23,231 nt of DNA from positions 1-23,231 of IMG/VR virus record IMGVR_UViG_3300008217_000104; one strand, written 5' to 3'. A program made the position numbers and the translations under genes. The number at the start of each line of letters is the position of its first letter. Position 1 is the stretch's first letter. This stretch comes from a virus. Below are positions 885 to 13,982 of this stretch, in pieces. The notes under the pieces were generated by a model. The model was not told where the DNA came from. It searched no databases and was given only the letters and a program-made list of their open reading frames with translations.

Positions 885-892
885 TTTATATT
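885..892 (+). promoter_or_regulatory. TATA box without a start codon downstream
   Basis: TTTATATT in AAGTTTATATTAG matches the other promoters. The predicted start of transcription is near 912-916, yet no start codon sits there. The only nearby ATG (898) is upstream of it and opens a 14-codon frame. Confidence 0.45.
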
Positions 893-911
893 AGTAGATG
901 ACATATATATA

Positions 912-1030
912 TCGGTTGTCAGGGATTACCACCGTGTTCTGAGCTCTGAGTGCGGAAAAACAGTAGCCCTCTTAAACCTTTAAAGGTTAGAAAGTGCGTA
1001 AGAGACGTCATCTAACCACAGAAAATTTTT
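912..1030 (+). ncRNA. Candidate structured non-coding RNA
   Basis: The stretch has no supportable ORF, follows an orphan TATA box, and is less AT-rich than its surroundings. Visible pairings are AGGG (921-924) with CCCT (967-970), extended by TAC/GTA; an inner stem of 932-939 with 948-955 that includes three G-U pairs; and a 3' hairpin of GGTTAGA (985-991) with TCTAACC (1011-1017), continuing inside as TGCGT (995-999) with ACG-CA (1005-1010, one bulge). A perfect 14-nt palindrome AACCTTTAAAGGTT (975-988) competes with the 3' hairpin. T-runs at 1026-1030 and beyond could end transcription, since archaeal RNA polymerase stops at T-runs. The RNA call is inference; it could instead be a DNA-level site such as an origin or packaging signal. 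Confidence 0.38.
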
Positions 1031-1116: not shown

Positions 1117-3249
1117 ATGGGTATTAGGCAGCGTTTTACAAGTGCATATAAGGCTTTAACGTCAGTCGACAAGGGTTATACCGAAACTACATCCAGACCG
1201 GCTATAATGCAGCCATATATGGCTACCGATACAGGCGCAAAACTACCAATTTTTCCATTTCCGCTAATTATGATCTATGAGTTGTCAGATAACGTCGACG
1301 CTCTAAGAATTTCCATTGAAACCATCAACAGAGAGATGTTTAAGAACGGTTTTGAGGTCGTTGAAAAGTACAAATACAAGTGTAACAACTGTGGAAAGGA
1401 GTTTGACGGCAAACCATCAAAGGATGACGCCTTTGATCGCAAGGAAGGACCGCCAAAAGACACTGATACAGATAAAGCACCTGCAAAAAGACTCTCACAT
1501 GCAAATAAAATACTAAACAAGGCAGGAATGCCAGGATTAAAGGAAGAAGAATCCCCTGCACAATGTGACGACTGTCATTCATCTGATATTTCTCGTCCAA
1601 AACCGGAAAATCGTAAAGTTTTACAACAATTATACACATGTTTCGTCAACAATAACGACCAAACCATGGAAGATGTCGGTAGAATGCTCGAGAGGGACCT
1701 AGAAGTAGCAGACAATGCATATTTATTACTATTAAAGAACTATTACATTAATGATGCTACAGGTAAGATTGATAAAAAGAAGACAAAGATTAAAGAACTT
1801 ATTAGAATAGATCCCCCTCAAGTCGCAATCATCGCAGATTCAGACGGCAGAGTCGGTTTCGATGACAAGAGAAACGCTGTATACGTCTGCCCACGATTTG
1901 AGCATAGAGATAAAAGGCTCTCCAAACCGCACTGTGAAAGGTGCGGTGCGGAAGCATTAAAGGCATTGTTGGAAGTGTCATCAGTATACTCTGTAGGTGT
2001 GCCACAGCCAAAGAGAGTAATATATGCACAGGGTGAGGTTATTTGGGTTGCAGGTAAATATAAACCGGGACTGATTTATGGATTTTCACCGATATATGCA
2101 TTATGGAGCAAAGTAATGTCATTGTCTCACATGGATGAGTACATTAGAAAGTACTTTGACAAGATGCGTCCGCCAAGAGGCTTGTTGGTCATACAGTCAA
2201 GAAATTATGAAACATTTAGAAAGTCATGGAACACACTTGAACAAAGAGCAACAGAAGATCCGTACATGATACATCCGTTACTGGTTGAATCCGACAAAGG
2301 CGGAGCAGGACAGGCCGCACAATGGATTGATTTCACGGGATCACTAAAAGAGTTACAATTTATAGATATTAGAAGAGAACTTAGACAGATTATAGGTGCA
2401 GCATATGGCGTATTGCCGTTATACTTTGGAGAACTTCCATCAGGATGGGCAAACGAGGGAATGCAGGTTACAATTACAAACAGACATGTAAAATGGTCAC
2501 AAGATTTCCTTAAATCACATATTTTCGACAGACTTGCAAAGGAATTACAAGTTAATGACTGGAGTCTACGACTTAGAGAAGGTGAAGAAGCAGACGAACT
2601 CAGAGATCTCGAAATAAAAGCACAAGAGATCCAGAACAACGCAACCCTGCAACAAATGGGATTCGATGTCAAGAGAACACACACTGGAGACTGGGTTGTC
2701 GGAAAGGAACCAACATTCGAGCAGGTTATGTTGCCACAAATGGCCGCAGCCGAACAACAGGCAGAACTTGGCATGGAAATACAGGAGGCACAACCGGAAG
2801 GACAGAAACAGGGAAGAGGTGCATCTACAACCGGTAACGGTGAGCGTACTCAGGGAGCCAAACAGGGCGGACCTATGAACAAACGACCATCAGACCCAGG
2901 TGGTTCAGGACAGGGTTCACCAACAGCAGGAGGCAAGAAGAGATCAGGCGCATTTAACGATTCACAGAAATCAATAGGACATACGGAAGAGTTCTGGGTT
3001 AGAAAGATGACCAAGGAAGGAGACATGACCGAGGACGAGGCTAGAAACATTGTAAAGTCATGGGAGAAAGAGTATAAAAAGTCAGGAACCATATATTTCC
3101 CAACAATAGCAGATGATGAGGAAAAGGCACCAGACGGACTTGCAGATACTGTAAGAAGAAAGAAATCAAAAGGCAAGGTAAAATATGTAATTAGAAGGGA
3201 AGGATTACCTGACATGGAAATAGTGAAATCCGAAGAGGAGGAAACATAA
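1117..3249 (+). CDS. Portal protein with two zinc-binding insertions
   Basis: This 710-aa protein would form the dodecameric portal ring at the head vertex through which DNA is packaged and the tail attached. Portal-type signatures are the GFSPIYALW segment (residues 322-330), followed by a long helix and MRPPRGLLV, and the later FIDIRRELRQIIGAAYGVLP and PSGWANEGMQ segments. Two putative zinc modules are inserted in the N-terminal half: C89/C92 with C150/C153 around an acidic-basic linker, and C258, H263, then H272-C273 and C276. Residues from about 560 to 620 are Gln/Gly/Lys-rich and probably disordered. They are followed by a small helical segment (EFWVRKM...SWEKEYKKSG). At 710 aa it is longer than typical 400-500-aa portals. 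The stop overlaps the next gene. The portal assignment is fairly secure; zinc binding is inferred from the Cys pairs. Confidence 0.85.
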   Translation: MGIRQRFTSAYKALTSVDKGYTETTSRPAIMQPYMATDTGAKLPIFPFPLIMIYELSDNVDALRISIETINREMFKNGFEVVEKYKYKCNNCGKEFDGKPSKDDAFDRKEGPPKDTDTDKAPAKRLSHANKILNKAGMPGLKEEESPAQCDDCHSSDISRPKPENRKVLQQLYTCFVNNNDQTMEDVGRMLERDLEVADNAYLLLLKNYYINDATGKIDKKKTKIKELIRIDPPQVAIIADSDGRVGFDDKRNAVYVCPRFEHRDKRLSKPHCERCGAEALKALLEVSSVYSVGVPQPKRVIYAQGEVIWVAGKYKPGLIYGFSPIYALWSKVMSLSHMDEYIRKYFDKMRPPRGLLVIQSRNYETFRKSWNTLEQRATEDPYMIHPLLVESDKGGAGQAAQWIDFTGSLKELQFIDIRRELRQIIGAAYGVLPLYFGELPSGWANEGMQVTITNRHVKWSQDFLKSHIFDRLAKELQVNDWSLRLREGEEADELRDLEIKAQEIQNNATLQQMGFDVKRTHTGDWVVGKEPTFEQVMLPQMAAAEQQAELGMEIQEAQPEGQKQGRGASTTGNGERTQGAKQGGPMNKRPSDPGGSGQGSPTAGGKKRSGAFNDSQKSIGHTEEFWVRKMTKEGDMTEDEARNIVKSWEKEYKKSGTIYFPTIADDEEKAPDGLADTVRRKKSKGKVKYVIRREGLPDMEIVKSEEEET
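3235..3241 (+). promoter_or_regulatory. Ribosome binding site for the 122-aa gene
   Basis: GAGGAGG, 7 nt before the ATG at 3249, lies inside the end of the portal gene. Internal operon genes have such sites while first genes rely on leaderless TATA promoters. Confidence 0.6.
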
Positions 3250-13261: not shown

Positions 13262-13831
13262 ATGTCACTTTTAACCAGAGGGTTAGGTAGTAATTTATTA
13301 TTAACAGGTGGAATGGGAGGAGTTACAGTAGTAATAATAAAAACCCCACAAGATGATACAGTTGCAGGAGCCTCAACATTAGAGGGACTTTATAGCAAGC
13401 GAAGAGTAAAGGGTATTACATTAAAATCGGAGGACAATCTAGTATTAATAGATAATATAACAGCATTCACACAACACCCAACAAAAATATTCAAGATGTT
13501 AAAGGCCAATAGAAAGGAGAGATTATTAATCACAAAGGCAGTAGACGTAATGAGGTCAGATCCGATGCATATAACATCAATAGTAATAAGAAGACCTAGT
13601 AAAAGCCTTGTAATAAAGGAACATTATATGAGAAAACTTGACAGCAAGTCAGGAGTACAGGGAGACAGATTGATGAATTTTGTAGAAAAACAGATAAAAA
13701 TTAAGAATAAAGAGACAAAATTGACCAGTAAAAAAACGAAACATATAAACGTGGTGGATACTATAGATACACTAGAGGTTACTGAATTGATGGAGATTAT
13801 AAAAGATATGGATGATGCAGATGTTATTTGA
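13262..13831 (+). CDS. Small structural-type protein with glycine-rich start
   Basis: This 189-aa protein starts MSLLTRGLGSNLLLTGGMGG; the LLTRGLG ... LLTGGMG repeat is a signature I associate with small proteins encoded near phage tail genes. A hydrophobic strand (VTVVIIKTP) follows. The rest is basic and mostly helical (residues about 70-160), with a Lys-rich stretch (EKQIKIKNKETKLTSKKTK) and an acidic C-terminus ending DMDDADVI. Its start lies 2 nt after the previous stop, so it is the third gene of an operon begun at 12095. The next ORF begins inside its last codons. Function is unknown. Confidence 0.66.
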   Translation: MSLLTRGLGSNLLLTGGMGGVTVVIIKTPQDDTVAGASTLEGLYSKRRVKGITLKSEDNLVLIDNITAFTQHPTKIFKMLKANRKERLLITKAVDVMRSDPMHITSIVIRRPSKSLVIKEHYMRKLDSKSGVQGDRLMNFVEKQIKIKNKETKLTSKKTKHINVVDTIDTLEVTELMEIIKDMDDADVI

Positions 13832-13982
13832 CGGGTTTATTTCAGGATTGAAAAAGTCTTTTTCAGGCAAAATATTCACAAGAGAACTCAATGATTGCAG
13901 ATTCTGTGGAAAACCAAGCTATTTTGACACATGTTTAAAATGTGAAATTGACGAGGCATATAGGGGATTTGGGCAAAAATGA
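13821..13982 (+). CDS. Small zinc-finger protein, 53 aa
   Basis: This ORF of 53 codons starts ATG at 13821, overlapping the last 11 nt of the preceding gene, and its TGA overlaps the next ATG (ATGA at 13979). After an amphipathic start (MLFDGFISGLKKSF) it has C26-x2-C29 and C38-x2-C41, a compact treble-clef or ribbon-type zinc site (CRFCGKPSYFDTCLKC). The perfect fit between the two neighbouring genes, with stop/start overlaps on both sides, is strong support for coding. It may be a DNA- or RNA-binding accessory; function is unknown. Confidence 0.65.
   Translation: MLFDGFISGLKKSFSGKIFTRELNDCRFCGKPSYFDTCLKCEIDEAYRGFGQK

Follow-up and report, generated by a model that had tools for sequence, protein, structure and literature searches.

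Three known systems bear comparison with the element described here. The phi29 pRNA (Rfam RF00044) is a small viral RNA of ~100–170 nt from a tailed virus, encoded near packaging genes, and phage pRNA constitutes a family in Rfam. Adenovirus VA RNA and the herpesvirus EBER and HSUR are short, structured and independently promoted viral RNAs. Tan1 is an abundant, uncharacterised cellular ncRNA of 229 nt from marine Thalassoarchaea (Euryarchaeota; PMC5069720). Within the open literature, we found no earlier account of such structured RNAs in tailed archaeal viruses. Here we report an element before the portal gene of a viral DNA record (IMG/VR IMGVR_UViG_3300008217_000104; the window, that is, the whole stretch of 23,231 nucleotides that was analysed, to which coordinates without a locus label refer) that, judging from comparative sequence analysis, is a previously undescribed RNA, widespread among viruses, the two-hairpin shape of which is kept by matched changes in at least three unrelated lineages. 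Like phi29 pRNA, it would be a small RNA of a tailed virus, encoded at most loci near packaging genes, yet it has no Rfam match, its hairpins stand in tandem with no sign of interlocking loops, its promoter is archaeal, and its link to packaging genes does not extend to every lineage. With VA RNA, EBER and HSUR it shares short length, structure and an independent promoter, whereas its host is archaeal, its action on a host factor is only proposed and its function inferred; the likeness is one of general features, and kinship in sequence or structure is not expected. Tan1 is likewise a structured ncRNA from marine archaeal sequence data, from which the present RNA is set apart by being viral and about 100–120 nt long.

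The promoters, hairpins, T-runs and portal gene all lie on the + strand. The TATA box of the RNA gene, TTTATATT (885–892), is an octamer whose counterparts stand at a preferred distance in relatives, and G914 lies 29 bp downstream of it, the same spacing that separates the portal gene's own TATA box, TTTATATA (1088–1095), from the ATG at 1117 (portal protein gene, 1117–3249; PHROG portal, E = 1e-36); the TATA box noted in the first-pass annotation is confirmed. On the basis of this spacing, the transcript is predicted to start at about G914; its predicted end is within the first T-run (T5 at 1026–1030) or beyond it, and its predicted span is given as 914–1030. It would begin with hairpin A, the constant domain (914–978; covariance-model match of 50.7 bits), in which an outer stem, P1 (914–917/975–978), is followed by an internal loop (GUC 918–920/CUUA 971–974), by P2 (921–924/967–970), by a bulged A925, by a further paired segment (926–929/963–966) and by an apical extension (930–962). 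Hairpin B, the type i 3′ domain (985–1017), consists of an outer stem (985–991/1011–1017), an internal loop (992–995/1009–1010), an inner stem (996–999/1005–1008) and a loop (1000–1004). T-runs follow the structure, as had been noted, at 1026–1030, 1046–1050, 1061–1067 and 1076–1080, and possibly form an archaeal terminator of the RNA gene, a function suggested by their sequence. A short cysteine-rich protein encoded at 698–862 ends ~20 bp ahead of the TATA box of the RNA, and in the related contigs L002–L012 too the RNA is preceded by Cys-rich ORFs that resemble it.

The element stands out in composition, with a GC content of 39–43% in 120-nt windows over it against 23–33% in most windows on either side, in agreement with the lower AT content first claimed for it. 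Its minimum-energy fold contains the stems originally described for 885–1030; the folding energy, however, is no better than that of shuffled sequences, being non-significant both for 885–1030 (z = −0.50; 59 of 200 shuffles fold as well) and for 912–1030 (z = −1.12; 30 of 200). A structured RNA would be an unproven claim from this one sequence, and what decides the matter is the comparison with relatives.

Confirmed relatives of the portal protein in IMG/VR number 190, and the 80 best were retrieved. In L001–L012, the portals of which are 72–100% identical, the two hairpins are kept before the portal with changed stem sequences, and a hairpin-B pattern led to more contigs, with complete copies in L084, L089, L094 and L114. 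A hairpin-A pattern gave 58 matches in IMG/VR viral contigs versus 3 in 84,980 prokaryote genomes. All 58 viral matches are genuine, having either an outer stem whose sequence changes or a score of 52–70 bits with a covariance model that was trained on many of the sequences it scored, whereas the three matches in prokaryote genomes are spurious: their outer stem is not formed, and two score ~20 bits and one goes undetected by the model. Host or provirus copies were also sought through the portal, which has no relative in the prokaryote genomes searched, and the Nitrososphaera provirus Pro-Nvie1 gave no match to the RNA. Hairpin B occurs alone, without hairpin A, at L110:1445–1476 (minus strand), in the virus record that also carries the RNA of L007.

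Both hairpins are maintained by compensatory change. Pairing in hairpin A is kept in 95.8% of pair cells across 39 distinct sequences, with two-sided changes at 8 pairs and a covariation score of 0.376, compared with 0.118 in shuffles (none of 500 reaches the observed value) and at most 0.089 in slid versions. The corresponding values for hairpin B in 22 relatives are 96.3%, two-sided changes at 8 of 11 pairs and a score of 0.701, compared with 0.243 in shuffles and at most 0.191 in slid versions. The covariation check that had been proposed was carried out as an R-scape-like, tree-aware test (FastTree tree; 200 nulls obtained by redistributing Fitch substitutions over the columns; G statistic with average-product correction), in which 5 of 14 pairs in hairpin A and 7 of 11 in hairpin B are significant at E < 0.05, the non-significant pairs being mostly invariant. 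No off-structure pair covaries in hairpin A, and one does in hairpin B (columns 12 and 20, that is, window positions 996 and 1004); these two positions, which do not form a pair of the helix, change together across viruses (A with U, G with G) and may make a tertiary contact.

The alignments define a common architecture. Hairpin A combines a P1 of variable sequence with the GUC/CUUA internal loop, P2, the bulged A and a UUACC/GGUAG stem, below an apical loop that ranges from 6 nt to more than 40 nt; type i hairpin B combines its outer stem with an AAGA/CA internal loop, an inner stem RYGU/ACRY and a loop with an invariant GA. An intergenic element present once per genome and close to gene-cluster borders could also be a DNA element (a replication origin, or a packaging or recombination site) with hairpins formed as DNA. 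We regard this as very improbable, given the one-sided TATA box at a fixed distance, a conserved U–G wobble pair (34 of 39 sequences), from which the G–U excess of hairpin A mainly comes, and the ratio of G–U to A–C in hairpin B (14 versus 2), an excess that favours RNA over DNA and the + strand as the one transcribed.

The promoter is conserved in position and the element has no conserved coding capacity. Among 45 relatives, a TATA-like octamer (at least 7 of 8 positions) precedes the aligned hairpin by 28, 29 and 30 nt in 25, 7 and 5 cases, respectively, and by any other distance in at most 4 cases each, so that the distance is kept in most members. The stretch had been said to lack an ORF, and no reading frame is shared by 46 relatives. 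Some copies hold chance short ORFs of up to 32 codons, as a short peptide gene would require, but these have no common start, frame or length, the whole of hairpin A measures 44–90 nt regardless of frame, and substitutions track base pairing, which leaves the peptide reading with next to no probability. Covariance models of Rfam 15, that of phi29 pRNA included, gave no match in the window at the gathering threshold; at a relaxed E-value, there is a single chance match to a CRISPR repeat on the opposite strand (E = 0.99). ARAGORN found no tRNA or tmRNA gene in the window. An archaeal C/D or H/ACA guide RNA was considered and rejected, as the GATGAC/CTGAG and ACCACA motifs of the window are not kept in relatives and there is no Rfam match; likenesses, by eye only, to 16S helix 24, the 23S GTPase centre and an anticodon loop were set aside too, given that the Rfam scan yields no rRNA match and the loops are not conserved. 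Structure, promoter spacing, distribution and absence of an ORF are established here by computation. Covariation across many viral contigs, together with a fixed-distance promoter, no ORF and a single copy, upholds the virus-encoded structured RNA of the first-pass annotation, and the comparisons strongly support the view that the element is an independent small RNA gene.

A more specific suggestion, that the RNA acts in cis on the portal operon as its leader or switch, fared differently. In this virus, the portal gene starts 139 bp past the RNA on the same strand, and a 14-nt palindrome, AACCTTTAAAGGTT, is present that could compete with the 3′ hairpin, consisting of the 3′ strand of the outer stem of hairpin A abutting the 5′ strand of the hairpin B stem. 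However, the palindrome is absent where the A and B stems differ in sequence (for example, L005, L006 and L084), and because it does not recur when stem sequences change, the competing fold is not conserved; a palindrome switch was rejected as confined to close relatives, in which the neighbouring stems share sequence by chance. The portal's own promoter, moreover, lies downstream of the RNA, and the RNA is directed away from the portal in about a dozen relatives and adjoins other genes elsewhere, with other lineages having it upstream of terminase genes or next to MCM or cobS. This varied placement excludes a general portal-leader role, and a leader, riboswitch or switch acting in cis on the portal gene is largely refuted.

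The RNA occurs in marthavirus-like viruses, in a lineage with a Nitrososphaera provirus-like terminase and in a third lineage (the record of L209), records of which have about 3–11 detected gene families in common. In the window, the sole relatives of the major capsid protein in the phage collection are from tailed viruses of haloarchaea (~25% identity), and the portal matches PHROG portal families. Relatives of this virus carry CobS-like and MCM genes; radA, ATPases and CobS are hallmark genes of marthaviruses (PMC7678222). The terminase of the second group has one match only among 50,697 phage records, to Pro-Nvie1 (33%). Such gene content suggests that the hosts are marine ammonia-oxidising archaea.

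Placement also bears on whether the RNA might belong to the portal–terminase motor or act as a packaging guide, as phi29 pRNA does. It lies right before the portal, on the same strand, in window-type viruses, is divergent from the portal at about 480–940 bp in other portal-bearing marthavirus-like viruses, and stands about 0.6–2 kb upstream of TerL in two further groups; of the 44 distinct loci, about 36 have a portal or TerL gene no more than 2 kb away. Loci beside MCM or cobS, unlike most, have no packaging-gene neighbour; several viruses with a related portal have the RNA at such a place, far from portal and terminase. Moreover, whereas exactly one copy is present in 22 of 41 whole related records, the other 19 (some of them fragments) have none, which means that the RNA is not universal, and three of these exceed 56 kb and carry the same portal family. 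Given these observations, together with the lack of a match to phage pRNA in Rfam, we consider a packaging RNA unlikely, although a virion-related role could explain the proximity to portal or terminase in most lineages, which we count against the reading that we prefer.

That reading, to which we assign a probability of roughly 60%, is that the element is an autonomous gene for a small, trans-acting RNA, carried by tailed viruses that infect marine ammonia-oxidising archaea, and that this RNA binds a conserved partner, most likely of the host. From its own TATA promoter, an RNA of ~100–120 nt would be transcribed, reaching from the base of hairpin A to the T-runs beyond the 3′ domain, and would act in trans. 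The core of hairpin A (the UC/CUUA internal loop, the bulged A and the UUACC/GGUAG stem) would be recognised by the partner, and the 3′ domain (hairpin B or the RNA3 described below) may serve a second function or stabilise the 3′ end. A conserved core with variable stems, an own promoter, a single copy, the absence of host-genome copies at the pattern used and the occurrence in distinct lineages fit such a trans-binding RNA. Because one core serves virus lineages with few genes in common, we infer that a protein or ribonucleoprotein of the host is the most likely partner, in which case the RNA probably alters some process of the infected host. A promoter of its own and a short length, together with apical loop and linker sequences that differ between viruses, would also suit an RNA that regulates the virus's own mRNAs in trans through base pairing. 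Regulation of this kind nevertheless seems decidedly unlikely: the conserved unpaired parts are very short (GUC, CUUA), and the paired sequence of P2 is conserved beyond the needs of pairing, which suggests recognition by a protein.

One constant core across lineages that share few genes points to a target that they have in common in ammonia-oxidising archaea, which are central to the marine nitrogen cycle and for which genetic tools are few. With the covariance models, the RNA can serve as a marker by which viral contigs of this kind are found in DNA and, in principle, also in metatranscriptomes.

The 3′ side of the RNA is exchangeable. Copies without a type i 3′ domain often have another conserved module, RNA3, made up of a 4–5 bp hairpin with the loop ARGUC and then a 7 bp hairpin with CACGUAAG in its loop (for example, L181:1027–1071, L177:3414–3458 and L200:11724–11768). 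Its pairs are kept in 99.0% of cases, with two-sided changes at 11 of 12 pairs in 16 sequences. In some viruses RNA3 is fused directly 3′ of hairpin A, and in others it forms a separate unit slightly downstream with an apparent TATA box of its own and a first stem capped by a short loop; among whole records, all 7 in which it was found also bear the RNA, and it lies near hairpin A in them. The presence of RNA3 at some loci and of hairpin B at others indicates that hairpin A acts as a module on different scaffolds. We tentatively extend the proposal of a trans-acting RNA, at somewhat less than even odds, to a family of modular viral RNAs, in which hairpin A stays constant and the 3′ scaffolds are exchangeable, and which has been kept or exchanged among unrelated tailed lineages because hairpin A captures one conserved host machine. 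If true, archaeal viruses would have their equivalent of the small RNAs with which eukaryotic viruses target the host, in a virus–host system among the most abundant of the ocean.

A viral protein partner was sought by comparing 8 RNA-bearing with 3 RNA-less records, and the one correlate was a small zinc-ribbon protein (13812–13982; GLKKSFSGK...CxxCG...CxxCE). This protein occurs in unrelated virus lineages, in 13 of the 22 records with the RNA versus 1 of the 19 without it (Fisher p = 0.0003, uncorrected for kinship), and its gene lies close downstream of the RNA in the second virus group. As an obligatory partner it was rejected, since records of 48 and 55 kb that carry the RNA lack it.

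Upstream of the portal there is also another structured element, RNA2, which is unrelated to the first. It has no Rfam match and consists of a closing stem, a CUGG/CCAG hairpin, a variable third hairpin and a conserved UAUGCnnACUCACACCAC; examples include L001:3702–3770 (which ends ~115 bp to the left of window position 1), L018:2638–2701 and L045:3382–3445. One clear copy is present in 21 of 41 records, and its pairs are kept in 90.5% of cases, with two-sided changes at 14 of 16 pairs, 10 of the 16 being significant in the tree-aware test.
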